Assembly: GCA_003558105.1 (NCBI GenBank)
Contig: PWMS01000040.1
Location: 1-37,531 of the forward strand
Reading direction: 5' to 3'
Length of the DNA: 37,531 bases
From: Mollicutes bacterium
GTDB taxonomy: Bacteria > Bacillota_I > Bacilli_A > Izemoplasmatales > Izemoplasmataceae
Under the pieces are notes generated by a model. It was not told the origin of the DNA. It ran no database searches and saw nothing but the letters and a program-made list of their open reading frames with translations. The position numbers and the translations under genes were made by a program. Of this stretch, positions 693 through 34,962 are shown piece after piece. Numbering within the stretch: the stretch's first letter is position 1; each line of letters opens with the position of its first letter.

Positions 693-1706
693 ATGTTAAA
701 AAAATTATTGATGTTGCTAACGTTGATTTTAAGTATAACCATCATGACAGGTTGTGCTTTGTTTGACAATACCGTAGAACTACCCGATTTATTGTTTATG
801 GACAAAGAAGAAATTCGGGACCGATTAGATGAAGAAGATTTAGATGTGTATTTCTTCGTCGATGATACAGTTGAGCGTGATCGTCCCCATGTCTTTATTC
901 GATATATGGATAAATCGGTTGGCGAAGAAGTTGAACGTGGTCAAGTCATCTCCGTTATTGTTTCGAGCGGTTTAGAAGAGGACGATGAGGATTTAGAAGA
1001 TGCGCCGAGAGTACCGATCGATCCAGAAGGTAGCTTTACCGCTTATGAAGATGTCGCCCTTTATCTTGATACCTTCAAAACCCCACCGGGTAATTACGGC
1101 GATGATGATCTAATCGTCTTTGATCCCGATGAGCACGAAGCCATCCCAGGCGGCGATCGTGATTATTTTGCCCTTGAAGTCGATGATGATATCGCTGATG
1201 CCTACATTGTCTATAGCGATGATGGCTTGGTTTATTACACTACCAATGCCTTTGATTCCTTTGAACAGCTATTTGGCAACGAAGAACACCCACCCCTAGA
1301 CAAAGATGCCCATTATACCGACCAAGATGATGTCGCGTTATACATTCGTACTTTTGGCAAACTGCCGCCAAATTATTTTATAAGATACGAAAATGATGTT
1401 AATCTATACCGAAATGTTTATGGTTACGTCCCCGACTTCTATGATGATCATGAATATTTTGGTGATTTGACTGGACTAAGAGAAGAATACGGCGAAGATT
1501 CTTACTTTGGTTATTGGCACTTTTCCAACCACGCTGGTCAACTACCAGGCTACACGATGTTCTATATTGCTGATATTAATATCTGGGGCGCAGGATGGTC
1601 ACGAGGTAACGACCGATTTGTCTTCTCTCCTGATGAAAAAATTGTTTATTATACCCCTGATCACTTTAACACTTACGAACTAATTTATGGCGATGCCCGA
1701 GATTAA
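693..1706 (+). CDS. lipoprotein with PASTA domain and two degenerate barnase-like domains
   Basis: Predicted secreted lipoprotein of 337 aa, very rich in Asp/Glu. I use ATG at 693 (GAGGTG six bases upstream), not the in-frame GTG at 684. A signal peptide ends in MTGC, with the lipidated Cys at 21. Residues about 28-93 resemble a PASTA domain. Two related repeats follow (about 114-195 and 207-333), resembling the extracellular RNase barnase as I recall its sequence. Repeat 2 has DVALYIRTFGKLPPNY, FSNHAGQLPG, ADIN, NDRFVFS and TPDHFNTY in barnase order. Against barnase, the general base Glu73 aligns with Ile292 and Lys27 with Arg231, while Arg83, Arg87 and His102 align with Arg304, Arg308 and His324. 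Repeat 1 is shorter and its His102 position is Ala186. Catalysis is therefore doubtful; ligand binding at the cell surface is an inference. No barstar-like gene lies beside it. Confidence 0.8.
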   Translation: MLKKLLMLLTLILSITIMTGCALFDNTVELPDLLFMDKEEIRDRLDEEDLDVYFFVDDTVERDRPHVFIRYMDKSVGEEVERGQVISVIVSSGLEEDDEDLEDAPRVPIDPEGSFTAYEDVALYLDTFKTPPGNYGDDDLIVFDPDEHEAIPGGDRDYFALEVDDDIADAYIVYSDDGLVYYTTNAFDSFEQLFGNEEHPPLDKDAHYTDQDDVALYIRTFGKLPPNYFIRYENDVNLYRNVYGYVPDFYDDHEYFGDLTGLREEYGEDSYFGYWHFSNHAGQLPGYTMFYIADINIWGAGWSRGNDRFVFSPDEKIVYYTPDHFNTYELIYGDARD

Positions 1707-1720
1707 ATTTAACCCCTACA

Positions 1721-1756
1721 AAAAAGACCTTCACGACAATGTGAAGGTCTTTTTAA
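1721..1756. terminator. bidirectional terminator between lipoprotein and S9 peptidase
   Basis: A 14-base perfect stem (1721-1734 with 1741-1754) with a six-base loop. An A-run opens it and a T-run closes it, so it can end both the + strand lipoprotein transcript and the convergent peptidase transcript. Confidence 0.85.
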
Positions 1757-19930: not shown

Positions 19931-20038
19931 GTTTGCTATTTAACATACTGTTAGATACAAGCCTTTATCGATGTGGATAAGTGCTTGTATCAACCGATGA
20001 TAATCAATCGAGTGGTGCACGCCGCTCGATTTTTTTTA
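19931..20038 (+). promoter_or_regulatory. second his attenuator, a diverged copy of the first
   Basis: TTAGATACAAGCCT is shared with module one (there at 19757-19770, here at 19951-19964). GATACAAGC (19954-19962) pairs with GCTTGTATC (19983-19991). A terminator follows at 20007-20037. The antiterminator pairing is less clear than in module one: only a short CGAT/ATCG match is obvious between 19995-19998 and the terminator 5' arm. Confidence 0.65.
20007..20037 (+). terminator. terminator of the second his attenuator
   Basis: ATCGAGTGG (20007-20015) pairs with CCGCTCGAT (20022-20030), including one G-U, then eight T. It ends about 20 bases before the hisZ start. Confidence 0.88.
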
Positions 20039-20058
20039 TACAAAAAAAGGAGGACATT

Positions 20059-21003
20059 ATGACATTCCCAACCCTAAACGATGCTTTAAATTATCACCAA
20101 CAAAAATTCGAAGTCATCAAAAGACTCGAAACCATCATCACCGAACAAGGCTATCAGATGATTGAACCAGCCTATTTTGAAAATTACGACCACTTCATTA
20201 AGATGCATCAACGCATCGAAAAAACCTCAATGGTAAAACTCATCGATGCCGAGGGTAATATTCGGGTTTTAAGACCGGATATCACCACTAGTATCATGAA
20301 AGACTTGATTCCTAAGTGGCATAATGGCTTAAAGCTGAAACTGTTTTACAACACCACAGTTTTTGTCAATACCAAAGCGGGCATCAAAGAACAAAAACAA
20401 TTTGGCGTTGAATACCTCGGCCCGCAAACACCGACCACCGACAGCGAGCTTATCGCGATAATCTTAGAGATATTCAACGATTTTAATCTAGCCTTCATCT
20501 TAGAAGTCTCCCATGCAGATTTCTTACATCAACTCATCGATAACCTCGCTTTAGATCATGAACAGATCGATACCTTAAAAGATATCATCTATCACAAAAA
20601 CCGCTATGCACTCAATAAATTTATTGATAAGAACCTCAATCAAAACCCTTCCCAACAAGTCCTTGCGACCCTTTTTGATTTACAGGGTACACTTGAGGTA
20701 ATAGATGACAAATTAGCTAACATCGATTTACCTGAAAATATAAAAACAACCCTAGCGCAACTAGCCAACTATCAAAGTCAGTTTAAAAACGATGCGGTAA
20801 CCTTCGATCTAAGCATGTTAAGTCAATACGACTATTACAGTGGTTTAATATTTAAAGGTTATCTGGCCAATGTGCCAAGTGCGGTATTAAATGGTGGCAG
20901 ATACAATACGCAAGCGATGGGGTATAAAAAAAGCGTGCCGGCCATCGGATTCTCATTTTCCCTTGCCGCATTGCTTCAGGAGGTTATGAAGAACAATGGA
21001 TAA
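20059..21003 (+). CDS. hisZ: ATP phosphoribosyltransferase regulatory subunit
   Basis: HisZ is a histidyl-tRNA-synthetase-like protein that lacks tRNA charging and forms a complex with short HisG, giving activity and histidine feedback. The 314-aa chain starts at ATG 20059 (AAGGAGG upstream); the frame is open back to 19981 but that part lies in the attenuator. HisRS-like class II elements are seen: RVLRPDITTSIMKDL near motif 2, QFGVEYLGP, FDLSMLSQYDYYSGLIFKGY and LNGGRYN, while the anticodon-binding C-terminus is absent. First structural gene of the operon, overlapping hisG by eight bases. Confidence 0.95.
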   Translation: MTFPTLNDALNYHQQKFEVIKRLETIITEQGYQMIEPAYFENYDHFIKMHQRIEKTSMVKLIDAEGNIRVLRPDITTSIMKDLIPKWHNGLKLKLFYNTTVFVNTKAGIKEQKQFGVEYLGPQTPTTDSELIAIILEIFNDFNLAFILEVSHADFLHQLIDNLALDHEQIDTLKDIIYHKNRYALNKFIDKNLNQNPSQQVLATLFDLQGTLEVIDDKLANIDLPENIKTTLAQLANYQSQFKNDAVTFDLSMLSQYDYYSGLIFKGYLANVPSAVLNGGRYNTQAMGYKKSVPAIGFSFSLAALLQEVMKNNG

Positions 21004-21628
21004 TAAATTAGTGATGGCCCTACCAACAGGTCGATTAGGCGATAGCGCGATTGCACGCTTACATGCAATCGGCCTAGCAAAAAAGATATCCCCAAAATCG
21101 AGAAAACTCGTCTTTGATGACGATGAAAACATTCGATATATCCTGGTCAAACCCATCGATGTCATCACCTATGTAGAAAACGGCATCGCCGATATCGGCA
21201 TCATCGGCAGCGATGTCATCTTAGAACAAGAAGCCGATGTCTATGAAATTATGGATTTAGGGTTTGGACTCTGTAAATTTTCGATAGCAGGCTTAAAAGA
21301 TCAGACTTTGTACAAACCCGATGAAGTAATCAAAGTCGCCACAAAGTATCCTAATGTCGCAAAAAAGTACTTTCAAAACAAACAACAAAAAATCGACATC
21401 ATTAAAATCAATGGCTCTGTGGAACTCGCCCCCTTGCTTGGGTTATCGAATGTGATTGTCGATATTGTGGAAACCGGCAATACGCTTAAAGCCAATGGTC
21501 TAGTCGTCATTGAAGATATGTTTGAAATCAGTGCTAAGACCATCGTCAACCGCAGTAGCTATCGTTTTAAATACCAAAAAATCACCGGATTAACAAAGCG
21601 TTTAGAAGCATCCATGGAGGTTAAATAA
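20996..21628 (+). CDS. hisG: ATP phosphoribosyltransferase, short form
   Basis: Catalyses the first step of histidine synthesis, joining ATP and PRPP. At 210 aa it is the short form without the C-terminal regulatory domain, which explains the need for HisZ encoded just before it. Seen: MALPTGRLGD at the N-terminus, GIADIGIIGSDV, and the PRPP-binding GNTLKANGLVVIE near residue 160. The ATG at 20996 lies within the last codons of hisZ; AGGAGG upstream. hisG ends exactly one base before the hisD ATG. Confidence 0.97.
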   Translation: MDNKLVMALPTGRLGDSAIARLHAIGLAKKISPKSRKLVFDDDENIRYILVKPIDVITYVENGIADIGIIGSDVILEQEADVYEIMDLGFGLCKFSIAGLKDQTLYKPDEVIKVATKYPNVAKKYFQNKQQKIDIIKINGSVELAPLLGLSNVIVDIVETGNTLKANGLVVIEDMFEISAKTIVNRSSYRFKYQKITGLTKRLEASMEVK

Positions 21629-22930
21629 ATGATAAAAATACTCAATATGAAAGAAGATACACTCGAGATTGATGCTTTGTTTAAACGCAATCAATTCGAT
21701 TATCAAGCGGTTAACCAAAACGTTGAAGCGATCATTAAAAACGTTTTAGAAAACCAAGATGACGCTTTGAGGAGCTATTCAAAAAAATTTGACAACGTCG
21801 AATTGACCGACTTCAAGGTATCCGTTCAAGAAATTGATAACGCCTTTGAAACCCTTGACAAAACGCTGATCAATGACTTAAAAAAAGCGATCGACAATAT
21901 CACCCGCTATCATGAAAAACAAGGTTATCAAAGCTTTCAATACGAAAAAGACGACGGCACCATTTTAGGTCAAAAAGTCACCCCTATAAAAACTGTGGGT
22001 CTTTATGTCCCCGGGGGTACCGCAAGTTATCCTTCGACGGTCTTGATGAATGCGATTCCCGCGCGCATTGCTGGGGTCAAAAACATTGTTATGATTACCC
22101 CACCCAAAAAGGATGGTACCATCCAACCCTCAATTTTAGTCGCCGCCAAACTCGCAGGCGTCGATACCATCTATAAACTAGGAGGTGCGCACGGGATTGC
22201 GGCTTTAGCTTATGGTACAAAAACCATTCCAAAAGTCGATAAAATTGTCGGTCCAGGCAATATTTATGTATCCATCGCCAAAAAATATCTTTACGGCAAA
22301 GTCGGCATTGATATGATTGCGGGACCGAGCGAAATTTTAATTATTGCGGATGAACAGGCCAATCCCGATTACATCGCAGCCGATTTGATGAGCCAAGCGG
22401 AACACGACACCTTAGCCAGCGCTATTCTCATCACCCCCTCTTCTGCCTTGGCAAAAAGGGTTAAAAAGGCATTATCCGCGCAGATTAAAACCTTAAGCCG
22501 TAGCGACATCATCAAACAAGCCTTAAACGATTACGGGGCCATTATTCTTAGCGAAGATTTAAAAAGTGCGGTTAATTTTTCCAACACCATCGCCCCTGAA
22601 CATCTAGAAATTTTAACCAAAGACCCCTTCAGCCTTTTAAACGATATTACAAACGCCGGTTCCATCTTCTTAGGCGAAAATACCCCTGAGCCTGTGGGGG
22701 ATTATATCGCTGGACCCAACCATACCTTACCGACCAGTGGCACCGCCCGGTTTTCTTCGCCGCTTTCAACCACGGATTTTCAAAAGAAATCTGCCTATAG
22801 TTTCTATTCCCTAAACGCCTTAAAAAACGATGCTGAGGCGATTATCAACATCGCCGATGAAGAAGGATTAACCGCCCACAGTAACGCGATTAAAGTGCGT
22901 CTAAGAAAGAAGGATGAACATGCTACCTAA
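21629..22930 (+). CDS. hisD: histidinol dehydrogenase
   Basis: Oxidises histidinol to histidine in two NAD+-dependent steps, the last two reactions of the pathway. The 433-aa protein has the family landmarks GLYVPGGTASYPSTVLMNA, GGAHGIAALAYGT, VGPGNIYV, GPSEILIIAD, SQAEHD (Zn and catalytic region) and APEHLEI. GGAGG eight bases before the ATG, which abuts the hisG stop. Start and length agree with the family. Confidence 0.98.
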   Translation: MIKILNMKEDTLEIDALFKRNQFDYQAVNQNVEAIIKNVLENQDDALRSYSKKFDNVELTDFKVSVQEIDNAFETLDKTLINDLKKAIDNITRYHEKQGYQSFQYEKDDGTILGQKVTPIKTVGLYVPGGTASYPSTVLMNAIPARIAGVKNIVMITPPKKDGTIQPSILVAAKLAGVDTIYKLGGAHGIAALAYGTKTIPKVDKIVGPGNIYVSIAKKYLYGKVGIDMIAGPSEILIIADEQANPDYIAADLMSQAEHDTLASAILITPSSALAKRVKKALSAQIKTLSRSDIIKQALNDYGAIILSEDLKSAVNFSNTIAPEHLEILTKDPFSLLNDITNAGSIFLGENTPEPVGDYIAGPNHTLPTSGTARFSSPLSTTDFQKKSAYSFYSLNALKNDAEAIINIADEEGLTAHSNAIKVRLRKKDEHAT

Positions 22931-23960
22931 AAAAAGTGTCCAAGCCTTAAACACTTATCAAACCAAAAACATCGACTACAAGGTCAAACTGGATGCCAAC
23001 GAAGCAACCAGCGATGTTTTAAAAGACTTTAAAGACAAGCTGCCCACGTCCTATTTTCGCTACCCAGACAATCATGCGCAAACCTTAAGACAAAAAGCCG
23101 CGAGCTACTACAACACAAAAGCCGAAAACATCATCGCCGGCAATGGTTCAAGTGAGATGTTGGAATTAATACTAAAAACCTACTTAGAAAAAGACGATGT
23201 CGTGCTTGGCTTTGAACCGAGTTTTACCATGTTTCGCGTCTTTACAGAAATCTATACAGGACAATATATGCCCGTTGAAGCCAACGAGCCATTTGCGTTT
23301 GATACAGAAGCTATGATCCAAGCAGCGCAAACCTACCAACCCAAAATCATCATCCTGTGTACCCCCAACAACCCCACCGGCAATATCCTTAGTGAAACAG
23401 CCATCAAGACGATCATCGAAAGTACCAACGCGTTGGTGTTGGTCGATGAGGCCTATATAGAATTTTATAACAAGCAAGCTTCCATGATTCGCTTCCTTAA
23501 GACTTATCCCCGACTCATCATCTTAAGAAGCTTATCAAAAGCCTTTGGGCTCGCGGGGATTCGCTTAGGTTTTCTTTTTTCTAATCCCGATATCATAAAA
23601 ACCCTAAACACCGTCAAATCACCTTATAACCTCAACATCCTAACCCAATCGCTTGGCATTCATGCCTTGGATGAATCTGGACGCGTTGAAGCGTATCTAA
23701 GCTTTATTAAAAAGGAGCGGGCCAAGATGTCAAAGGCACTTGAGAACCTAAATATCAGAGTCTTTCCCTCATATGCCAACTTCGTATTCTTTAAAAGTCA
23801 TCAAACCCATCTCTTTGACAAACTTTTAGACCAAGGCATTTTAATCCGAGACTTTAAAGGACCGCTTGCGTCTTATTTCCGTGTCAGTATTGGAACAACT
23901 GAAGATAACGAACAATTTATCAACGCCTTAAAGGAGGTTACCCCCGATGCGAGAGACTAA
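22920..23960 (+). CDS. hisC: histidinol-phosphate aminotransferase
   Basis: PLP-dependent class I/II aminotransferase of 346 aa converting imidazole acetol phosphate and glutamate to histidinol phosphate. CTPNNPTGN, VDEAYIEF and RSLSKAFGLAGIRLGF with the Schiff-base Lys are seen. I use ATG 22920, six bases after AAAGG, rather than ATG 22914, which touches it. It overlaps hisD by 11 bases and hisB by 14. HisC-like enzymes in Gram-positive bacteria may also transaminate prephenate or phenylpyruvate; that would matter here because no separate aromatic aminotransferase is in the window (inference). Confidence 0.96.
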   Translation: MLPKKSVQALNTYQTKNIDYKVKLDANEATSDVLKDFKDKLPTSYFRYPDNHAQTLRQKAASYYNTKAENIIAGNGSSEMLELILKTYLEKDDVVLGFEPSFTMFRVFTEIYTGQYMPVEANEPFAFDTEAMIQAAQTYQPKIIILCTPNNPTGNILSETAIKTIIESTNALVLVDEAYIEFYNKQASMIRFLKTYPRLIILRSLSKAFGLAGIRLGFLFSNPDIIKTLNTVKSPYNLNILTQSLGIHALDESGRVEAYLSFIKKERAKMSKALENLNIRVFPSYANFVFFKSHQTHLFDKLLDQGILIRDFKGPLASYFRVSIGTTEDNEQFINALKEVTPDARD

Positions 23961-24525
23961 ACTAAACCGCAACACCAAAGAAACCCAAATTCAACTATAT
24001 CTAAATATCGATGGCACGCGCCAAATCGATGTTGATACAAAAATTCCATTTTTTGACCATATGTTAACGTTGATGGCCTTTCATGGTAACTTTGATTTAA
24101 ACATCCAATGCGATGGCGATATCGACGTCGATGATCATCATACCATTGAAGATGTTGGGTTGGTGCTTGGGGATGCCATCAAAGAAATCATCAACACCAA
24201 AAAAGGCTTAAGACGCTATAGCTCCATCTTTATGCCGATGGATGAGAGCCTAACACGCATCGTTTTAGATATTTCTAACCGTCCATACTTAGGTTATCGC
24301 ATGCGCCTAAACCGCGAAAAAGTTGGGACGATGGATACACAAAACGTACAAGAGTTTTTCAAAGCCCTGATCGCAAATGCGCGTTTGACCCTCCATATCG
24401 ACTTGCTTTATGGTGAGAATGATCATCACAAAATTGAAGCTGTCTTTAAAGCTTTCGGTAAAGCTTTAAAAGAAGCTACAACCATCGAGGGTAAGTCGGT
24501 GAATTCCAGCAAGGGTGTGTTATAG
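23947..24525 (+). CDS. hisB: imidazoleglycerol-phosphate dehydratase
   Basis: Mn-dependent dehydratase of 192 aa, monofunctional (no phosphatase domain), converting IGP to imidazole acetol phosphate. The metal-binding motifs DDHHTIEDVGLVLGDA (about 60-75) and NDHHKIEAVFKAFGKAL (about 157-174) are intact, as is FFDHML near the N-terminus. AGGAGG lies inside the end of hisC. The stop of hisB directly precedes the hisH ATG. The separate histidinol phosphatase at the end of the operon supplies the activity missing from this short form. Confidence 0.98.
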   Translation: MRETKLNRNTKETQIQLYLNIDGTRQIDVDTKIPFFDHMLTLMAFHGNFDLNIQCDGDIDVDDHHTIEDVGLVLGDAIKEIINTKKGLRRYSSIFMPMDESLTRIVLDISNRPYLGYRMRLNREKVGTMDTQNVQEFFKALIANARLTLHIDLLYGENDHHKIEAVFKAFGKALKEATTIEGKSVNSSKGVL

Positions 24526-25131
24526 ATGAATGTGATTCTCGATTATGATGTGGGGAACCTCGATTCTGTCAAACGCGGTTTTGAACGCGTCGGGATTAAA
24601 AGTGTAATCTCAAAAGACCCCATTATCATTCAAGCGGCCACCGCTTTAATATTGCCAGGGGTCGGCGCTTTCAATGAAGCGATGAAATCTTTAAGACAAT
24701 CTGGCTTGATTCCTTATATATTTGAACACATCAAGCAAAACAAACCGCTCCTAGGGATATGTCTAGGAATGCAGCTGCTTTATGAGGCCAGTGAAGAAAA
24801 CGGCTACACCGAAGGTCTAGGGTTATTAAAAGGGACGATAAAACCCCTGAATATACGTTTAAAAGTCCCTCACATGGGGTGGAATCAACTCATCTTTCAA
24901 AAGCCTGATCATACCTTATTAAAATACATTCAAGAACATGATTACGTCTATTTTGTGCATGCTTATTACGCCGCAACGAATCTAGATGACGTCATCGCTT
25001 ACGCCGATTATGAAACAAAGATACCCGCCATCGTCGCCAAGGGCCCTATTTATGCGACCCAGTTTCATCCCGAAAAAAGCGCGGCGGTCGGCCTAAAAAT
25101 TTTACAAGCATTCAAAGAGGTGATTTCATGA
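24526..25131 (+). CDS. hisH: imidazole glycerol phosphate synthase, glutamine amidotransferase subunit
   Basis: A 201-aa class I amidotransferase delivering ammonia from glutamine to HisF. Nucleophile Cys is in LLGICLGMQLLYE (about residue 80), and the His-Glu pair in ATQFHPEKS (about 182-184). The oxyanion region is LPGVGAF and the HisF-facing PHMGWNQL is present. It abuts hisB (TAG followed by ATG) and overlaps hisA by four bases (ATGA). Confidence 0.97.
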   Translation: MNVILDYDVGNLDSVKRGFERVGIKSVISKDPIIIQAATALILPGVGAFNEAMKSLRQSGLIPYIFEHIKQNKPLLGICLGMQLLYEASEENGYTEGLGLLKGTIKPLNIRLKVPHMGWNQLIFQKPDHTLLKYIQEHDYVYFVHAYYAATNLDDVIAYADYETKIPAIVAKGPIYATQFHPEKSAAVGLKILQAFKEVIS

Positions 25132-25856
25132 AACTATACCCGGCCATCGATTTAAAACACAACCGCTGTGTCCGTTTAAGCCAAGGTAAGTTCGAACATG
25201 AAAAAGTCTATGACCAAGACCCTTTCAAGGTCGCAAAAAGATGGTTAGATGAAGGTGCCACTTTCTTACACATCATCGATTTAGACGGGGCCAAAGACAA
25301 CGACATGATAAACTTACCCGCCATTAAAAACATCAATACCTTATCGATTCCCATGCAAGTCGGTGGGGGCATACGCTCACTAAAGCGAATCGAGACGCTT
25401 CTAAAAGAAGGCATCAACCGCGTGATTATTGGGACCATGGCCCTCGATAATATGGCCATGTTAAAAACAGCCTTAAAACGATTCCCCGGGCAAATCATCG
25501 TATCGATCGATGCTAAAAAAGGCAAGGTCTTAAGCCATGGCTGGCAAAAAGATACCAATATATCCGCACTAAACCTTGCCTCAACCTTAGAGAATATCGG
25601 CATCAAAACCATCATTTATACCGATATTGAAAAAGATGGGATGCTTAAAGGTCCTAATCTAGAAGCCTATAAAACCTTGGTTGAAAAGACCAACCTTGAA
25701 ATTATCGCAGCTGGGGGTATCACTACCCTAGACGATCTAAAATCTTTAGAGGCCATTGGGGTCTTTGGGGCGATAATTGGTAAAGCGCTATATGAAGAAA
25801 AAATTGATTTAAAGGAGGCATTACAATGCTTGCAAGACGCATCATCCCGTGCCTAG
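25128..25856 (+). CDS. hisA: ProFAR isomerase (HisA)
   Basis: TIM-barrel isomerase of 242 aa converting ProFAR to PRFAR. Catalytic Asp at the end of strand 1 is in [14 protein letters not shown] (residue 7), the second acid in [10 protein letters not shown]. Phosphate-binding loops are QVGGGIRSL and [11 protein letters not shown]. Four-base overlap with hisH and a 31-base overlap with hisF, the largest overlap in the operon. No sign of the dual HisA/TrpF enzyme type could be judged from sequence alone. Confidence 0.96.
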
Positions 25857-26584
25857 ATGTCCGAGATGGCAGAGTCGTCAAAGGGCAAAGATTTCAAGCC
25901 ATAAAAGACGTAGAAGACCCCGCAAAACTCGGAAAAATCTATAGCGAAGAAGGCGCCGATGAATTGGTCTTCTACGACATCACAGCCTCAAGTGAACAAC
26001 GTGAGATATCCTTAGAATTTATCGAAAAAGTCGCCGCTACCTTACAAATTCCCTTCTGTGTTGGAGGCGGCATCAAAACCATTCAAGATTTTGGACGCAT
26101 CTTAAGAAAAGGCGCTGACAAAGTCTCTATTAATTCCGCGGCGATCTTAAATCCACAGCTAATCAAACAAGCAGCCGAGGTTTATGGTTCACAGTGCGTG
26201 GTACTTTCCATCGACGTGAAACAAGACCCCGATCAAAGCTACCGTGTCTATCTTAACGGCGGCAGACAAAAAACCGATCTTGAAGCTATCGCGTGGGCCA
26301 AAAAAGGCGTCGCCTTAGGCGCAGGCGAACTCGTCATCAACAGCATGGATCAAGACGGTATGAAAAACGGCTATGATATCGCACTCTTAAAACAGATTAC
26401 CGATGTAGTCAATGTCCCTGTGATAGCCTCAGGCGGCGCAGGCAAACTTTCTCACTTTAAAGACGTCATTCAAAAAGCCAACGTCGATGGCATCTTAGCC
26501 GCCTCTGTTTTCCACTACGGCGAGATCAAAATTAACGATTTAAAAGATTACTTATCGAAACAAGACATAACCATGAGAATTTAA
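25826..26584 (+). CDS. hisF: imidazole glycerol phosphate synthase, cyclase subunit
   Basis: TIM-barrel cyclase of 252 aa that uses ammonia from HisH to make IGP and AICAR. Catalytic Asp11 is in [15 protein letters not shown], and the second Asp is in VLSIDVKQD (about 130). CVGGGIKT and ASGGAGKL bind phosphates. AGGAGG for this gene lies inside the 3' end of hisA. Its by-product AICAR feeds purine synthesis, a link with the guaA-guaB operon upstream. Confidence 0.98.
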
Positions 26585-26595
26585 GGAGGCACATC

Positions 26596-27231
26596 ATGCA
26601 AAAAACGATAGAAACATTCGATTTAAAACAACTCACCTTCAACCAAGATAATCTCATCCCCGTCATCGTACAAGACATCCGTTCAAAAGCGGTATTGATG
26701 ATGGCTTATATGAATAAAGAAGCCTTACAAAAAACCCTAGACACCAAAGAAGCTACCTATTTCAGCCGATCAAGACAAACGCTATGGAAAAAAGGACAAA
26801 CCAGTGGCAACACCCAAAGCGTTGAAGCTTTAAGCTATGATTGTGACGCCGATGCGGTATTAATGCAAGTCAAACAACGCGGTGTTGCGTGTCACACCAA
26901 CAAAATGAGCTGTTTTCACAATCCCATCTTCAACGAAGATAAAACCCTTGATTCCAATATTTTATTTTCTTTATATAATCTTATTAAAGAAAGAAAAAAC
27001 CGGCCTAAAGCTGGTTCTTATACCGAATACCTCTTTCAAGAAGGCCTTGATAAAATCTTAAAGAAAGTCGGCGAAGAAAGCAGTGAAGTCATCATCGCCG
27101 CCAAAAACCAATCCCCCGAAGAAATGACAAATGAAATCAGCGATTTACTATACCATCTCATCGTTTTAATGGTCAATGAAAACCTTGAATTCGACGAGGT
27201 CTTAAATGAATTAAACGAAAGGCGGAAATAA
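26596..27231 (+). CDS. hisIE: bifunctional phosphoribosyl-AMP cyclohydrolase/phosphoribosyl-ATP pyrophosphatase
   Basis: A 211-aa fusion performing steps two and three of the pathway. The N-terminal HisI part (about 1-115) has YMNKEAL, SRSRQTLWKKG and the Zn/Mg site DCDADAVLMQVKQRG followed by ACHTNKMSCF. The C-terminal HisE part (about 120-211) is an all-helical MazG-like domain with KVGEESSEVIIAAKN and NEISDLLYHLIVLM. AAGGAGG precedes ATG 26596, 11 bases after hisF. Fusion order is the usual I-E. Confidence 0.98.
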   Translation: MQKTIETFDLKQLTFNQDNLIPVIVQDIRSKAVLMMAYMNKEALQKTLDTKEATYFSRSRQTLWKKGQTSGNTQSVEALSYDCDADAVLMQVKQRGVACHTNKMSCFHNPIFNEDKTLDSNILFSLYNLIKERKNRPKAGSYTEYLFQEGLDKILKKVGEESSEVIIAAKNQSPEEMTNEISDLLYHLIVLMVNENLEFDEVLNELNERRK

Positions 27232-27232
27232 C

Positions 27233-28039
27233 ATGAAACGCCCGCTCATCGACCAACATGTTCATACCAATGCTTCGCCAGATGCCAATCGGGATGCGAC
27301 CATGACAGCGTATATCGATAAGGCTAAGAAAATGGGTATACCCGGCGTTGTCTTCACCGATCACGTCGATATGGATACCCCCGTCGAACTTTTCAAAACC
27401 TTCCCCGATTATCAAACCTATAGCAAAAATATCAAACCCCTTAATACCCCCGATTTTTTCGTCCGTATGGGGGTGGAAATAGGCTATCAACCCCACATTC
27501 AAGAAAAAATAGAAACATTCATTCAAAGCCATCCCTTTGATTTTGTGATCTGTTCGATTCATCTCGGGGATAAACTCGATTTTTATAACGGCGATTTCTT
27601 TATCGGTAAAACCCAACAAGAAGCCTATCAACGTTATTTTGAGTTGGTGTTAGAATCGGTAGAAAACTTTCAGGATTACGAGGTTTTTGGCCATCTTGAT
27701 TATATTATTCGCTATGGCGATTTTGAAGATAAAGCCTTTGATATCGATGATTATCAACCCTTGATCGATACCATTTTAAGCACCATTATCAAAAATGGTA
27801 AAGGCATCGAAGTCAATACCTCTGGGATTCGCTACAACCTCGGTGTGATGCATCCAAACCTTGCCATTTTAAAACGTTATAAAGCCCTTGGGGGTAAAAT
27901 CATCACCCTTGGGTCAGATGCGCATAAGGTTGATGATTTTTACAGCGATTTCGAACACGCCATCGCTTTGATTTTAAAAGCTGGATTCCGTTATATCACT
28001 GAATTTAAAGCCCGACAACCCTATTTCATTGAACTATAA
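27233..28039 (+). CDS. hisK: histidinol-phosphatase, PHP family
   Basis: Metal-dependent PHP phosphoesterase of 268 aa, removing phosphate from histidinol phosphate. DQHVHTNASPDAN provides the first HxH ligands, FTDHVD the next, HLGDKLDFY and GHLDYIIRYGD the middle ligands, and LGSDAHKVDDF the last Asp-His pair. Length and motifs agree with HisK/HisJ histidinol phosphatases of Gram-positive bacteria. It starts two bases after the hisIE stop and completes the pathway: every step from PRPP to histidine is encoded from 20059 to here. I see no terminator after it. Confidence 0.95.
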   Translation: MKRPLIDQHVHTNASPDANRDATMTAYIDKAKKMGIPGVVFTDHVDMDTPVELFKTFPDYQTYSKNIKPLNTPDFFVRMGVEIGYQPHIQEKIETFIQSHPFDFVICSIHLGDKLDFYNGDFFIGKTQQEAYQRYFELVLESVENFQDYEVFGHLDYIIRYGDFEDKAFDIDDYQPLIDTILSTIIKNGKGIEVNTSGIRYNLGVMHPNLAILKRYKALGGKIITLGSDAHKVDDFYSDFEHAIALILKAGFRYITEFKARQPYFIEL

Positions 28040-28180: not shown

Positions 28181-28278
28181 AAGGATTGCCGCGCGCACTC
28201 CTTTTTGACTCATGCGAAAAGGCAGGCGACCTAACAAAGATATTTTATCCTTGGGAGAGACGCCCAAGGATTTTTTTA
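28181..28278 (+). promoter_or_regulatory. aromatic operon attenuator
   Basis: AAGGAT (28181-28186) is complementary to ATCCTT (28247-28252) in the terminator 5' arm, a possible antiterminator. Competing helices are AAAAGGA (28179-28185) with TCCTTTT (28199-28205), and CCTTTT (28200-28205) with AAAAGG (28217-28222). GTTAGGT (28121-28127), at the leader ribosome binding site, is complementary to ACCTAAC (28229-28235). Confidence 0.65.
28247..28277 (+). terminator. terminator in the aromatic operon leader
   Basis: ATCCTTGGG (28247-28255) pairs with CCCAAGGAT (28263-28271), seven-base loop, then seven T. It stands 40 bases before the DAHP synthase start. Confidence 0.92.
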
Positions 28279-28317
28279 TTATCAAAAATAAGCTATAATA
28301 CAAGGAGAGAGAAACTT

Positions 28318-29337
28318 ATGATTATTCAATTAAAGCAACAAGCAACACAAAAAGAATACAAAAAAATTGTAAACTATTTAAAAGAAAGAAACTTCAAAAT
28401 TAAAGATGTCCGCAGTGAAAACGTCATTGTTTTTGGCGTCATCGGGGATACCTCAGCGATTGACCCGCACGATCTTTATGCTTTTGAAGGCGTCGATAAA
28501 ATCACCCGTGTATCCACCCCTTTTAAAAATGCCTCACGGGCTTTTAAGGCTGAAGATACCATCATCAAAATCAATGGCATCACCACCATCGGTAAAGATC
28601 AATTTACTATGATTGCCGGGCCTTGTTCTATCGAATCTGAAACCCAACTGCGCACCACCGCCAAACACTTAAAAGCAAAAGGAACCCACATCTTGCGTGG
28701 TGGGGCTTACAAACCAAGAACCTCACCTTATGCCTTTCAAGGCATGGCGTTGGACGGGTTAAAACTCTTGCGTAAAATCTCCGATGAATTTGAGATGGCC
28801 GCGATTAGCGAAATTCCCAGTGCCGATTTAATCGATACCTTCGAACAGTATGTCGATATCATTCAAGTGGGCGCTAGAAATATGCAAAACTTCCATCTTT
28901 TAAAAGCCCTCAGTAAATCATCTAAACCCATCATGTTAAAACGGGGCCTCTCGGCTACGATTGAAGAGTGGTTAATGAGTGCTGAATACATCATGGCCGG
29001 TGGCAATCCTAATGTAATCTTGTGTGAACGTGGGATTAGAACCTTTGAAAAATACACCCGAAACACCTTAGATATCAGTTCTGTCTTAGCGGTTCAAGAA
29101 CTCTCCCATCTGCCCGTCATTATCGACCCATCTCACGCCGCAGGGCGTTGGCAGATGATCGATAAGTTATCGCTTGCTGCCTTAGCGGTAGGTGCGAGTG
29201 GTTTAATGATCGAAGTCCACCCCAACCCTGAAGAAGCTCTAAGCGATGGCGCCCAATCGTTAAAAATCCCTAAATTTAATGAACTGATGGATCATATTGA
29301 AACGCTCACCCCCATGTTTGGAAAGACCTTAAAATGA
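28318..29337 (+). CDS. aroF: 3-deoxy-7-phosphoheptulonate (DAHP) synthase, type I-beta with regulatory domain
   Basis: Condenses erythrose 4-phosphate and phosphoenolpyruvate, the first step of the shikimate pathway. The 339-aa protein starts at ATG 28318 (AAGGAGAG upstream); the frame open back to 28186 lies in the attenuator. Residues about 1-70 form a ferredoxin-like domain of the type that binds Phe/Tyr for feedback inhibition in the Thermotoga enzyme. The barrel has AGPCSIES, LRGGAYKPRTSPYAFQG, GARNMQNFHLL, KRGLSATIEEW, CERGIRTFE, DPSHAAGR and EVHPNPEEALSDG. No chorismate mutase domain. It overlaps tyrA by four bases. Confidence 0.95.
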   Translation: MIIQLKQQATQKEYKKIVNYLKERNFKIKDVRSENVIVFGVIGDTSAIDPHDLYAFEGVDKITRVSTPFKNASRAFKAEDTIIKINGITTIGKDQFTMIAGPCSIESETQLRTTAKHLKAKGTHILRGGAYKPRTSPYAFQGMALDGLKLLRKISDEFEMAAISEIPSADLIDTFEQYVDIIQVGARNMQNFHLLKALSKSSKPIMLKRGLSATIEEWLMSAEYIMAGGNPNVILCERGIRTFEKYTRNTLDISSVLAVQELSHLPVIIDPSHAAGRWQMIDKLSLAALAVGASGLMIEVHPNPEEALSDGAQSLKIPKFNELMDHIETLTPMFGKTLK

Positions 29338-30158
29338 AAATCTTTATCGTAGGATTAGGCCTAATCGGGGCTTCTTACGCCGAGGGTTTAAAGGAAAAAG
29401 GCCACCGTGTTTATGGGTATGATCAAGATAAGACCACCATGGCCAAAGCCAAAGTTCAAAACATCATTGAAAAAGACACAAGCATAAACGATATCGAAAC
29501 GGCCGATCTTGTGATTATCGCACTTTATCCTGAGGCGACCATCGCTTTTTTGAAAGCACACCAACATCGTTTTAATAGAAGCCAAACCCTAAGCGATGTC
29601 TGCGGGATTAAAACTTGGCTTTTAACTGAGATTGAACGTTTCCTTCCAGCTCAGCTAAACTACACCTCGCATCATCCGATGGCGGGTAAAGAAACACCAG
29701 GCTTTGATGCAAAAGATAAAACCCTCTTTAAGGATGCCAACTTCCTAATCGTCAAAACCGCAAAAACCCACAAAAGAGACCTCGAACGATTAGAACATAT
29801 TGCAAACGATCTCAACTTTGGGCAAATCTCGCTTCTAACCCCCCAAAAACACGATGCGTTGATTGCCTATACCAGTCAACTAACCCACGTGATGGCCAGT
29901 AGTTTAATCCTGAGTTCAAAGGATGATGATGCCATCAAAGCAACCGGCAATTCTTTTAGAGATTTAACCCGTATCGCTAAAATCCATCCCCCTTTGTGGA
30001 GCGAGCTTTTCTTAAACAATAAAACACCTTTATTACAAGCTATCTCGCAATTTAAACAAGCCTTAAGCGAAATCGAAAGCCTACTTGAGCGTGACGATGA
30101 AGCCGGCTTGAAACAATTTTTAAAAAACGCAAAGAAACGACGTGAATCTTATGATTAA
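29334..30158 (+). CDS. tyrA: prephenate dehydrogenase
   Basis: NAD(P)-dependent decarboxylating dehydrogenase leading from prephenate to 4-hydroxyphenylpyruvate, the tyrosine branch. The 274-aa protein has an N-terminal Rossmann fold (IVGLGLIGASYAEGL), the active-site HHPMAGKE and YTSQLTHVMASSL, and a helical dimerisation domain with GNSFRDLTRIAKIHPPLW. It lacks an ACT domain, so feedback by Tyr would fall to DAHP synthase and to the leader peptide (inference). ATGA overlap with the preceding gene and eight-base overlap with aroB. Confidence 0.95.
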   Translation: MKIFIVGLGLIGASYAEGLKEKGHRVYGYDQDKTTMAKAKVQNIIEKDTSINDIETADLVIIALYPEATIAFLKAHQHRFNRSQTLSDVCGIKTWLLTEIERFLPAQLNYTSHHPMAGKETPGFDAKDKTLFKDANFLIVKTAKTHKRDLERLEHIANDLNFGQISLLTPQKHDALIAYTSQLTHVMASSLILSSKDDDAIKATGNSFRDLTRIAKIHPPLWSELFLNNKTPLLQAISQFKQALSEIESLLERDDEAGLKQFLKNAKKRRESYD

Positions 30159-31161
30159 AAAAACCATGCCCACCTACAACATTACCCTCACCAACCAAAA
30201 CCTAGAATATTTGCATGATGTCTTAAAAAAAACCTATCAGCAAAAGCCTCTTTTTATCATCACCGATAAAAATGTCTATGATTTTTACCAACAAGACCTA
30301 AAACAAACACTAAGTTCTTTCACCTGTCATTTTATCGTGGTCGAACCAGGCGAGAGGTCTAAAAGTTTAAAGACCTATCACAGCGTTATCAACAGCCTGA
30401 TGGAAAAAGGCATCAAACGCGATCATTTTATCCTCGCCTTTGGCGGTGGGGTGGTTGGTGATTTGGCTGGATTTGTGGCCGCAACGCTTTTTCGCGGAAT
30501 GCGCTATGCGCAAGTTCCCACAAGTCTTTTAGCCCAAGTTGACAGTTCGATTGGTGGTAAAGTCGCACTTGACTTAGAAGCAGGCAAAAACTTAGTTGGG
30601 GCTTTTTACGACCCTTGTTTCGTCTTTATCGATACCCACTTTTTAAAAACGCTACCCAAACGAGAAAAAAACAACGGTCTAGCAGAAATCATCAAAGCTG
30701 GATTGATTAAAGATAAAGCGTTGTTTGACCGCCTGGTTAAAGACCCTACCATAGATGAAACGCTGATGGCTAAAGCCTTAGATGTCAAGCGGGATTTGGT
30801 CTTAAAAGATCCTTACGATCAAGCAGACCGTATGCTTTTGAACTTTGGACATACCTTTGGACATGCGATAGAAAAAGCACACCAGTATGAAACCTACAAA
30901 CACGGTGAAGCGATCAGTTATGGGATGTTGATGGCGCTTCAAACAGGCATGAACTTAGGCATCACACCAAAAGATATCTATCCGATATTAAAACAACTAC
31001 TGCTTGATTTTGAGCTAATCACTGAGCCTTTACTCGAAGCCAAAGACTACCTAAAATACATAAAAAACGATAAGAAAAACTTATCGGATGGTATCCGCTT
31101 TATACTATTAGAAGCCATCGGTAAGGCGACATGGCAAACTTTAAGGGCGTGTGATCTTTGA
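30151..31161 (+). CDS. aroB: 3-dehydroquinate synthase
   Basis: NAD- and metal-dependent cyclisation of DAHP to 3-dehydroquinate, 336 aa. AFGGGVVGDLAGFVAATLFRGM binds NAD and substrate, QVPTSLLAQVDSSIGGKVALD follows, and the metal ligands are in the Glu of GLAEIIKAG and the His residues of LNFGHTFGHAIE and YKHGEA. ATG 30151 overlaps the tyrA end; an in-frame GTG at 30142 is an alternative. No strong ribosome binding site is visible, so coupled translation is likely. Confidence 0.96.
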   Translation: MIKKTMPTYNITLTNQNLEYLHDVLKKTYQQKPLFIITDKNVYDFYQQDLKQTLSSFTCHFIVVEPGERSKSLKTYHSVINSLMEKGIKRDHFILAFGGGVVGDLAGFVAATLFRGMRYAQVPTSLLAQVDSSIGGKVALDLEAGKNLVGAFYDPCFVFIDTHFLKTLPKREKNNGLAEIIKAGLIKDKALFDRLVKDPTIDETLMAKALDVKRDLVLKDPYDQADRMLLNFGHTFGHAIEKAHQYETYKHGEAISYGMLMALQTGMNLGITPKDIYPILKQLLLDFELITEPLLEAKDYLKYIKNDKKNLSDGIRFILLEAIGKATWQTLRACDL

Positions 31162-32435
31162 TGAATGTCACCCTAAGTCAAAGTCAACTACAAGGTAGTT
31201 TAGCGGTAGTCTCTTCAAAGTCCCTATCACACCGCGCCTTGATTGCGGCCGGTTTGGCCCAAGGAATAAGTACCATCCATAATCTTTTGGATTGTGATGA
31301 TTTAACCGCCACAAAAAACGCTTTAAAAGCCCTAGGTGTGCGTATTGAAAAAAAGACCATTTATGGCGGAACATGGCGCGTTAAAAATAGTACCATCGAT
31401 GCCAAAGAATCCGGCTCAACGTTGCGTTTTATGATTCCTATAGCCTTGCTTTTAGATAAGCCTATAACCTTTATGGGGCGTAAAAGACTTGTAAAAAGAC
31501 CTTTAGATGTCTATCAAGATATCTTTAAAACAAAAGTTAAATACCAACCCTTAAGTAAAAATTCACTGCCCTTAAAAGTACAAGGCCCTTTGCAAAGTGA
31601 TCATTTCACCATCCCTGGCAACGTCAGTTCACAGTTTATCTCTGGGTTATTGTTTGCCTTACCTTTACTCAATGGTGATTCCGTCTTGAATCTTTCAACC
31701 CCCCTAGAATCAAAGGGGTATGTCGATTTAACTTTGGATACGTTAAAATCATTCGGAATCGATATCAAGGTAAAAGATAATTGTTTTATGATTCCTGGTA
31801 AACAAACGTATAAACCTCAAGATGTCACCATTGAAGGCGATTTTTCACAAGCGGCCTTCTTTATGGTTGCGGCGCTTTTAAATGGCGATGTTAAACTTAA
31901 GAACTTAAACCCCAACTCAAAACAAGGCGACAAAGCCATCGTTGACATCATTAAAAAAATGGGTGGAGACATCTCATACGACGAAGCACAAGCGTGGTAT
32001 CATATCAAGGCCTCTAAAACCAAGGGCACAGATATTGATTTGGCTCAAATTCCTGATTTAGGTCCCATATTAATGATACTCGCAGCGCTTAGTAAGGGCG
32101 TCACAACCTTTACATCAATTGATCGTCTTCGCATAAAAGAATCCGACCGAGCCGCTTCGATGATCGATATTTTAACCACCTTAGGGGTTAAAACAACCTT
32201 AAACAAGGATACCTTAACAATCCAAGGAACCAAACAATTTCAAGGCCATCAGACTTTCAAAAGTTACGATGATCACCGAATCGTCATGGCCTTAAGCATC
32301 GCTGCCTTAAAAGCCGATGGACCCATTACCATAAAACAAGCCGACGCGATTAACAAATCTTACCCAAAATTTTTCGATGACTATCAAGCTTTAGGTGGCA
32401 TCATCCAAAAAGATACAATGAGAAAGGATGTTTGA
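31161..32435 (+). CDS. aroA: 5-enolpyruvylshikimate-3-phosphate synthase
   Basis: Joins shikimate 3-phosphate and PEP to EPSP, 424 aa. The N-terminal substrate Lys lies in SSKSLSHRALIAAGLAQG, and KESGSTLRFMIPIALL carries the PEP-site loop. Also seen: NVSSQFISGLLFALP, EGDFSQAAFFMVAAL, RIKESDRAASM and DDHRIVMALSIAAL. ATG 31161 shares a base with the aroB stop (TGATG); a TTG at 31158 is in frame but unnecessary. Shikimate kinase, which makes its substrate, is not in this window. Confidence 0.97.
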   Translation: MNVTLSQSQLQGSLAVVSSKSLSHRALIAAGLAQGISTIHNLLDCDDLTATKNALKALGVRIEKKTIYGGTWRVKNSTIDAKESGSTLRFMIPIALLLDKPITFMGRKRLVKRPLDVYQDIFKTKVKYQPLSKNSLPLKVQGPLQSDHFTIPGNVSSQFISGLLFALPLLNGDSVLNLSTPLESKGYVDLTLDTLKSFGIDIKVKDNCFMIPGKQTYKPQDVTIEGDFSQAAFFMVAALLNGDVKLKNLNPNSKQGDKAIVDIIKKMGGDISYDEAQAWYHIKASKTKGTDIDLAQIPDLGPILMILAALSKGVTTFTSIDRLRIKESDRAASMIDILTTLGVKTTLNKDTLTIQGTKQFQGHQTFKSYDDHRIVMALSIAALKADGPITIKQADAINKSYPKFFDDYQALGGIIQKDTMRKDV

Positions 32436-32437
32436 CT

Positions 32438-33439
32438 ATGAATACGTATGGCTCATTATTCAAAGTAACCTTATACGGTGAATCCCATCAAAAAGCCATT
32501 GGTGTCGTCATTGATGGCGTCCCTCCCGGCATTAAAATTGATGAATCCATCATTCAAGCAGACTTATTGAAGCGTAAAGCAGGCGCTGTAGGGACAACCA
32601 CAAGAATTGAGGAAGATGCCTACGAGATTACCTCGGGCCTTTTCAATCAACATACCACCGGTTCTCCCATCCATATCATGATTGAAAACAAGGATGTGCG
32701 GTCTAAAGATTATAGCGCATTAAAAAAACATCCGAGACCCGGACACGCCGATTATGTGGCCCATGTCAAATACCAAGGGTATAACGATTATCGCGGCGGG
32801 GGACGCTTTTCAGGTCGCCTCACAGCAGCGTTGGTATGTGCCGGTGCGATTGCCAAACAAATACTGCCCTTTAAAATTACCCATGAATTAATTCAAGTAG
32901 GCACCTTAACCAATCTAGAAAAGCTCGATGAATATTTGGAAAAAATTGCAGAGGAAGGCGATTCAATCGGCGGGATTATCCAACTTAAAACCTCACCGCT
33001 CCCAATGGGATTAGGCGAACCCTTTTTCCAAAAATTGGATGCGGAAGTCGCAAAAATACTCTTTTCTATTCCCGCGGTCAAAGGCGTCGATATCGGCACA
33101 GGTTTTAGCGGCATCACGCTTAAGGGTAGTGAATTTAATGATCCCATCCTCGATGCCAGTGGTAAAACCAAAAGCAATCATAGTGGCGGTGTTAGTGGGG
33201 GTCTTTCCAACGGCAACCCCTTAAAAATCCGTGTCATGGTCAAACCCACTTCCAGTATCAAAAAGGCACAAGAAACCTATCACAAAGAAGAAAACCAAAC
33301 AAAAACCCTTGAGATTAAAGGACGCCATGATGTCTGTATTGCACGCCGCATTGGGATTGTTTTAGAGAATGCCTTAGCGCTTGCGCTAGTGGATTTATAC
33401 TTGCTTAATCAAACCTATAAAACGTTTTCAAAAGAATAA
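32438..33439 (+). CDS. aroC: chorismate synthase
   Basis: FMN-dependent elimination of phosphate from EPSP to chorismate, the branch point for Tyr, Phe and Trp. The 333-aa protein is somewhat short for the family (usually about 350-390) and ends just after ENALALALVDLYLL. Signatures seen: LYGESHQKAIGVVIDGVPPG, RPGHADYVAHVKY, RGGGRFSGRLTA, GGVSGGLSNG and GRHDVCIARR. AAAGG in the end of aroA serves ATG 32438; the in-frame TTG at 32432 is less likely. Last gene of the aromatic operon. Confidence 0.96.
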   Translation: MNTYGSLFKVTLYGESHQKAIGVVIDGVPPGIKIDESIIQADLLKRKAGAVGTTTRIEEDAYEITSGLFNQHTTGSPIHIMIENKDVRSKDYSALKKHPRPGHADYVAHVKYQGYNDYRGGGRFSGRLTAALVCAGAIAKQILPFKITHELIQVGTLTNLEKLDEYLEKIAEEGDSIGGIIQLKTSPLPMGLGEPFFQKLDAEVAKILFSIPAVKGVDIGTGFSGITLKGSEFNDPILDASGKTKSNHSGGVSGGLSNGNPLKIRVMVKPTSSIKKAQETYHKEENQTKTLEIKGRHDVCIARRIGIVLENALALALVDLYLLNQTYKTFSKE

Positions 33440-33780: not shown

Positions 33781-34962
33781 ATGCAAACACAATTTGGTCG
33801 TTTTGGTGGTCAATTCGTACCACCGCAAGTTATCACAGCATTAAACGAATTAGAAACTGCTTTTGAGGCCGCAAAAAAAGATCCCAGTTTTGAGGAAGAA
33901 TTCAAGTATTATCTTAAACAGTATGTCGGTAGAGAAAATCCCCTTTATTACGCAAAAAACTTAAGTGAATCCTTAGGTGGCGCAAAAATCTATTTAAAAA
34001 GAGAGGATTTAAACCACACAGGTGCCCACAAGATTAACAACACCATCGGACAAATTTTACTCGCGAAAAGAATGGGTAAAAAAAAGGTTATCGCAGAGAC
34101 GGGCGCAGGGCAACATGGGGTTGCGACTGCGACTGCGGCAGCCTTATTTGGGATGGAATGTGAAATTTTTCAAGGGTCAATCGATATGGAAAGACAGCGA
34201 TTAAATGTCTATCGAATGGAAATGCTAGGTGCGAAAGTCACCGGTGTCTCACAAGGGACAGCGACTCTATCCGATGCCGTGGATGTCGCCATTAATGCTT
34301 GGGTTGAACGTTTGGATGATACCTTCTATCTACTCGGCAGCGCCGTTGGTCCACACCCTTTCCCCTCTATGGTACGTTATTTTCAACGGGTTATCGGTGA
34401 AGAGGCTAAAGCACAAATTTTAGCGCAAGAAAACCGGCTGCCTGATTATCTAATCGCTTGTGTTGGTGGTGGATCAAACGCCATTGGGTTATTTCAAACC
34501 TTCTTAGCCGATCAAGATGTTAACATCATCGGCGTCGAAGCCGCTGGTAAAGGCATCCAGACCAATCAACATGCAGCGACAATGACCTTGGGCAAAGAAA
34601 GCGTCATCCATGGGATGAACACTAAAGTTGTTTTGAATGCGCAAGGAGACATCAGTCCTGTTTATAGCATATCAGCAGGCTTAGATTACCCTGGGGTCGG
34701 CCCAGAACATGCCCACTTGCAAGAAACCGGACGCGTCAACTATGTACACGCCTCAGACAAAGAAGCGGTTGAAGCGATGTACCTACTTTCCGCAAAAGAA
34801 GGCATTATTCCTGCGATAGAAACGGCACATGCCATCGCAGAAGCCGTGAAACTCGCCCCAACCTTGTCCAACGATAAAATTATCATCATCAACCTCTCAG
34901 GGCGTGGGGATAAAGATGTCGAAGCAATGTACAACTTACAAGAAAGTCCTCAAAAAGACTGA
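33781..34962 (+). CDS. trpB: tryptophan synthase beta subunit (stand-alone)
   Basis: PLP enzyme of 393 aa joining indole and serine to tryptophan. Type 1 features: [14 protein letters not shown] with the PLP Lys, ETGAGQHG with the catalytic Glu, [17 protein letters not shown] in the communication region, [10 protein letters not shown] for cofactor phosphate, and SGRGDKD at the end. GGAGAAAG precedes ATG 33781. No trpA or other trp gene adjoins it; it is the only gene under its T-box and is followed by a terminator. Either trpA lies elsewhere or the enzyme salvages external indole (inference). Confidence 0.96.

Follow-up and report, generated by a model that had tools for sequence, protein, structure and literature searches.

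Results

A PASTA lipoprotein with two barnase-like domains

The window, by which we mean the whole stretch of 37,531 nucleotides that was analysed, carries near its start a complete gene for a PASTA lipoprotein with two tandem barnase-like domains (Table 1), an architecture proposed in the original prediction and confirmed here by the open reading frame, by Pfam and phmmer matches, by the predicted fold and by the relatives of the protein. The ATG start codon stands behind a GAGGTGA-like ribosome site, in a start region common to 10 relatives, and the N-terminus has the signal peptide and terminal cysteine of a bacterial lipoprotein; the signal peptide was judged by eye, and Cys21 belongs to what we take to be a lipobox. 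Modelled by AlphaFold from 11 sequences, the mature protein (316 aa) had a mean pLDDT of 80.5; the protein numbering used here equals the model numbering plus 21.

The hairpin that follows the gene is strong (-19.9 kcal/mol, z -6.9, with 0 of 200 shuffles as good), and it bounds the gene downstream as a separate unit. A promoter scan returned one 10/12 match, at 633-661, and with 7 sites against 5.1 expected it gave no evidence of a promoter. No operon partner was found, the window's neighbour genes not being conserved at ten other loci. Searches for a phage or plasmid origin gave nothing among 50,697 phage records and, among 72,556 plasmid records, two weak matches that each fall short of covering 80% of the query. 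Further along the window, a full run of histidine genes, shikimate genes and a gene for the beta subunit of tryptophan synthase, though none for the alpha subunit, were recognised by eye (19981-28039, 28186-33439 and 33781-34962), a gene content that is unusual for a wall-less lineage.

Table 1. Features of the PASTA lipoprotein gene and of the sequence that follows it, with the barnase equivalents of domain 2 residues.
Feature	Position	Strand	Residues	Basis or conservation
Complete gene, PASTA lipoprotein with two barnase-like domains	693..1706	+	337 aa	Open reading frame
Lipoprotein signal peptide, last residue Cys21 (codon 753-755)	693..755	+	to Cys21	Cys in 11/11 orthologs
PASTA domain	774..968	+	28-92	Pfam and fold match
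Barnase-like domain 1, shortened	1032..1277	+	114-195	Alignment, secondary structure
Barnase-like domain 2	1308..1688	+	206-332	phmmer, fold match
Equivalent of barnase Lys27	1383..1385	+	Arg231	Arg in 11/11
Equivalent of barnase Asp54	1515..1517	+	Trp275	Trp in 11/11
Equivalent of general base Glu73	1566..1568	+	Ile292	Ile 9/11, Met 2/11
Equivalent of barnase Arg83	1602..1604	+	Arg304	11/11
Equivalent of barnase Arg87	1614..1616	+	Arg308	11/11
Equivalent of general acid His102	1662..1664	+	His324	11/11
Terminator-like hairpin, 14 pairs, A run 5', T run 3'	1721..1754	+

The PASTA domain and its company

Residues 28-92 match PASTA both in sequence, with 22.8 bits (E 9e-5) in hmmscan against a Pfam cut-off of 23.2 and 26.4 bits, above the cut-off, in a six-frame search with PF03793, and in fold, their model superposing on the PASTA fold of PknB with Z 10.6 and an rmsd of 1.2 over 66 aligned residues. 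The fold is alike throughout the PASTA domains of the PrkC and PknB kinases and of PBP2x (Z 8.3-10.6, rmsd 1.2-2.7, 58-69 aligned), but unlike those proteins this one has no kinase or transpeptidase. The original prediction had noted that PASTA usually binds muropeptides in kinases and penicillin-binding proteins and had called its union with an RNase fold unusual, and neither view seems to fit this order. The penicillin-binding transpeptidase PF00905 was detected in 0 of 41 genomes (controls were positive in 10 of 14), which makes muropeptide binding in the bacterium's own wall unlikely, and nuclease company is normal here, since all 13 of the other PASTA-type lipoproteins of the order that were examined carry a Staphylococcal-nuclease (SNase) domain.

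Pfam recognised that domain in 12 of the 13 (3/3 and 9/10), while in the thirteenth (L023, G050:C62), where the sequence stretch ends early, it lies in the same frame; the PASTA part was recognised by Pfam (E up to 0.01) in 2/3 and 6/10 and, in the remaining ones, through a match to the N-terminal part of the window's protein. These lipoproteins (L012-L017, L020-L025 and L042) likewise have a lipoprotein signal and at least one PASTA-type domain followed by a nuclease-type fold, which in them is that of Staphylococcal nuclease, whereas the protein encoded at 693-1706 bears two barnase folds and gave no match to PF00565 at E up to 10. That its sister PASTA lipoproteins carry a nuclease domain makes a role with nucleic acids likely. 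PASTA-type lipoproteins with SNase domains are common in this wall-less order, and the window's own genome (G000) has two SNase matches, one of them in a lipoprotein as judged by eye. Cultured relatives are wall-less and degrade DNA or both DNA and RNA, according to parts of two reports (PMC8397711, PMC10470597), the degradation of both appearing in the second (PMC10470597). It seems more likely that PASTA acts here as a stalk, or was inherited as a module from ancestors that had a wall.

Fold and site of domain 2

A ribonuclease profile search, which had been suggested as a check, failed for the window's protein (17.1 bits, E 0.008, against a Pfam Ribonuclease cut-off of 24) and succeeded for its relatives L047 and L051, which pass the cut-off. 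With phmmer against the PDB, barnase was matched at E 4.6e-6 over residues 212-329, and the model of residues 206-332 superposed on barnase and binase with Z 11.2 and an rmsd of 2.4 over 106 aligned residues, in agreement with Foldseek (best E 9e-5); an inserted loop was modelled weakly (pLDDT 49-77). By its predicted structure, domain 2 thus has the barnase fold (PF00545), as anticipated from the sequence.

An alignment of 36 rows, barnase included, shows that the replacement of Glu73 by Ile292 had been read correctly, and the position is Ile or Met in every ortholog; none of the 22 domains, that is both domains of the 11 orthologs, has Glu73. Also in 11/11 domains 2, the guanine-reading Glu60 has become Ala, Ser or Gly, and Asp75 is kept. 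The general acid His102 and Arg87 are found together in domain 2 only, and the four named basic columns of domain 2 all fall among its 31 invariant columns of 132, with a chance of 0.003. A differently placed Glu, which might have restored the site, is absent from the invariant columns of domain 2, whose sole invariant acid is Asp294 (equivalent to Asp75). The residue at the Arg59 position, His280 in the window, is not a general substitute base, as the column holds His in 8 of the 11 domains and Tyr, Trp and Phe in one each (the row of G002 has an adjacent gap). The earlier statement that the repeats lack catalytic residues therefore stands for domain 1 and fails for half of the domain 2 site, where His102, Arg83, Arg87 and a basic residue at 27 are kept.

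In part of one account, Glu73, Arg87 and His102 are counted among the strictly conserved residues of the PF00545 ribonuclease family (PMC5522418). Barnase and binase, which are microbial guanyl RNases, have in common with domain 2 the fold, Arg83, Arg87, His102, Asp75 and the basic residue at 27, and like the tandem protein they are secreted. Unlike them, domain 2 has Glu73, Arg59, Glu60 and Asp54 replaced in all 11 copies and is joined to a domain 1 whose site is lost, in a lipid-anchored tandem behind PASTA and without an adjoining barstar. As read from the alignment, domain 2 appears to be a patterned rebuilding in which the anion site was kept and the base removed.

Domain 1

Domain 1 of the window's copy lacks about 28 residues between helix 1 and the sheet, and AlphaFold models it (pLDDT about 84-94) as one helix and five strands with no second or third helix. 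It had no structural match among the matches listed, which belong to domain 2 and to PASTA. It aligns to the full-length domain 1 of its relatives, with 55% identity to that of L047, whose model superposes on barnase with Z about 20 and an rmsd of 0.9-1.4 over 108-110 aligned residues (about 40% identity); the barnase-like fold expected of the first repeat is thus found by way of L047, the alignment to which is the sole ground for assigning it to the window's domain 1. A profile of domain 1 matches that of domain 2 and the single barnases with E 2e-38.

The window's domain 1 has no equivalents of Glu73, Arg59, Arg83, Arg87 or His102. Glu73 corresponds to Ala160 and His102 to Ala186, so the catalytic His is indeed missing from the first repeat, as had been noticed at the outset. 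Among the 11 copies, Glu73 and His102 are absent from all, Arg83 is present in six and Arg87 in four, and the domain is shortened in three (G000, G003 and G004). Its net charge lies between -17 and -32 over a length of about 81-113 residues, which is more acidic than domain 2 or most single barnases. A domain of this charge might imitate nucleic acid or bind into a basic groove.

Alternatively, the pair might be a protein-binding or adhesion module that involves no nucleic acid. A protein, for instance an acidic barstar-like helix or the domain 1 of a neighbour, would then sit in the groove of domain 2 or against domain 1's acidic face. The new Trp at 54 and the aromatic residue at 59 would suit protein contact, as would the extreme acidity of domain 1, and in part of one report barnase is described as using the same basic set to bind acidic positions of barstar (PMC8837141). 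No candidate partner lies beside the gene, however, whose gene neighbourhood in the window is not shared by the 10 other loci, and the PASTA relatives are nucleases, so that we regard this explanation as decidedly improbable.

Distribution, selection and habitat

A survey of relatives for the same architecture, as had been advised, recovered the full tandem protein in 11 of the 90 genomes searched in the order: in five of the six genomes of the window's genus (it is absent from G001) and in all six of a second genus. The frames are open and free of stops in all 11 copies, each domain forms one clade with 100/100 support, and dN/dS was 0.045 and 0.170 for domain 1 and 0.122 and 0.146 for domain 2 in the two closest of 55 pairs, saturation being expected for the others. 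Both domains are under purifying selection. The number of full-length copies, the single clade of each domain and the low dN/dS indicate that the resemblance to barnase is not due to chance, which the fold match also rules out.

The same pattern bears on the possibility that the protein is a relic, descended from a secreted RNase and now being lost. The gene is missing from one genome of the window's genus, and domain 1 has been shortened in three of the copies and its site is gone, as a decaying protein would have it. Selection at a dN/dS of 0.05-0.17 in both domains, frames open in every copy and an invariant basic set in domain 2 nevertheless make such a course very unlikely.

The ten other tandem copies come from records named 'Mollicutes bacterium' with the sample codes T1Sed10, T3Sed10, CSSed10 and B1Sed10. 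In parts of one study, codes of that kind are borne by soda-lake sediment datasets, from a pH around ten, and Mollicutes of the NB1-n group are likened to Candidatus Izimaplasma (PMC6146748). To judge from the sample codes of its relatives, the window's bacterium probably comes from a soda lake too.

Single barnases and their barstars

Six single barnase lipoproteins occur in the same two genera (L032, L033, L034, L037, L038 and L039). Lys27, Glu60, Arg83, Arg87 and His102 are present in all six and Arg59 in four, and Glu73 in only two; L033, L034, L038 and L039 have Gln, Ser, Thr and Ser in its place and pair with barstars in L059, L056, L086 and L058, respectively. Thr stands at position 73 in three longer lipoproteins whose barnase is C-terminal (L031, L035 and L041); in L031 the barnase lies behind Listeria-Bacteroides repeat domains, and the genomes of all three have barstar matches on other contigs. 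Glu73 is present in 12/12 barnase domains looked at outside the two genera, of which L069 and L075 are weak alignments and L073 is a 44-aa piece, against 2/9 single or C-terminal copies inside them (Fisher p 0.0003, relatedness ignored). In other members of the order, L070, L071, L072 and L074 have barnase-like domains with Glu73, followed by segments that look by eye hydrophobic and membrane-like.

A barstar lies 13-28 bases away, domain to domain, from all six single barnases and from that of G015, and in four cases the barnase beside it is without Glu73. Because these Glu73-less enzymes keep an adjoining barstar, the loss of Glu73 by itself is no proof of a dead enzyme. When the barstars are numbered by their DxxxD motif, a numbering that is in part an assumption, Trp38-Asp39 is found in 3/3 partners of Glu73 enzymes (G015, G034 and G040), and the partners of Glu73-less enzymes have Trp38 in 0/4 and Glu39 in 3/4 (G002, G003 and G020), G044 keeping Asp. 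A barstar that changes in step with the loss of Glu73 looks like co-adaptation, which we treat only as a lead, since the pairs number seven and some are closely related. Extra barstar-like genes occur away from any barnase found, at G020:C7:47926-48180 and G044:C8:5291-5548 (L089).

The tandem gene has no adjoining barstar in any of its 11 genomes. Five of these genomes (G000, G004, G005, G028 and G046) gave no barstar at all, and in the other six the barstars lie on contigs other than that of the tandem gene. Absence of a barstar is weak evidence, because several Bacillus species have active barnase homologues without one, as stated in part of a report (PMC8837141), and because the genome G000 is 83% complete. 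Like the tandem protein, the single barnases of the barstar pairs have a barnase fold and a lipid anchor, and four of six lack Glu73; they differ in having one domain, no PASTA, Lys27 and Glu60 kept, and the barstar directly downstream. Judged by these residues, domain 2 of the tandem protein is set apart by its added loss of Arg59, Glu60 and Asp54 and by the missing neighbour.

Discussion

Drawing on the observed architecture, predicted fold, residue pattern, conservation and distribution, we favour the explanation that the protein encoded at 693-1706 is a pseudo-RNase at the cell surface, with nucleic acid or another polyanion as its ligand, and we would give this an even chance of being right. 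The lipid attached at Cys21 would anchor the protein to the outside of a cell that has no wall, with PASTA as a stalk or adaptor and the two barnase folds pointing outward. In barnase, the basic set formed by residue 27, Arg83, Arg87 and His102 holds the phosphate of the substrate. The groove of domain 2 could likewise hold a phosphate or other anion by Arg231, Arg304, Arg308 and His324, with Trp275 and residue 280 as new contacts; that this set is kept while Glu73, Asp54, Arg59 and Glu60 are replaced suggests an anion that is bound and cut inefficiently. Domain 1, very acidic and with its site wholly lost, may have been retained as a partner in structure or interaction. The protein would probably serve to capture extracellular RNA, nucleotides or some other polyanion, perhaps keeping nucleic acid at the surface close to the nucleases that these bacteria secrete to feed.

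The idea of an RNase fold reused as a surface binding module, already put forward in the original prediction, is therefore still the best reading of the domain pair, given the absence of Glu73 from every domain, although two of its supports have weakened: loss of Glu73 alone does not establish a dead enzyme, and in this order PASTA is a usual neighbour of nuclease folds. Several points count against a pseudo-RNase. Single copies without Glu73 remain paired with barstars, so activity may be possible without that residue; His102, Arg83 and Arg87, which an enzyme needs, are invariant in domain 2; and domain 2 is net acidic (-6 to -15).

The main rival starts from the first two of these points and holds that domain 2 is still an RNase, one without a general base, in which hydroxide replaces Glu73 at a pH of about ten, the value given for the lakes in part of one study (PMC6146748). 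The confinement of Glu73 loss to the two genera, where His102, Arg83 and Arg87 stayed, would be explained by it, as would the barstars that remain beside four Glu73-less copies and whose contact helix changed with them (Trp38 in none of the four, Glu39 in three). The tandem domain 2, however, has lost Arg59 and Glu60 in all 11 copies and gained a bulky Trp at 54, unlike the barstar-paired copies, which keep Glu60 in six of six and Arg59 in four, and no copy has an adjoining barstar. His102, moreover, would hardly be protonated at pH 10. For domain 2 we hold a base-free RNase to be rather unlikely, though less so than the protein-binding module.

A wider proposal joins the two patterns: two soda-lake genera may have remodelled barnase, with the loss of the general base at the centre of the change. 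Singles that lack Glu73 would still be toxic enough to require barstars, which co-changed (Trp38 lost, Asp39 turned into Glu), since pH 10 would supply the base, and the tandem PASTA branch would have given up the reading of guanine and turned into a receptor of nucleic acid at the surface. We put it forward tentatively, as a doubtful one. A literature search among open-licence papers found no published account of a lipoprotein that combines PASTA with tandem barnase domains.

Few enzymes have been studied as well as barnase, whose Glu73 part of one account calls strictly conserved (PMC5522418). Copies that keep the fold and the phosphate site and have lost the base, some of them beside a barstar, offer a natural test of the need for a general base at high pH. 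The tandem protein also points to a role for PASTA outside the cell wall, and it may show how, in bacteria feeding on nucleic acids, a toxin-type RNase could be converted into a binding protein of the cell surface.
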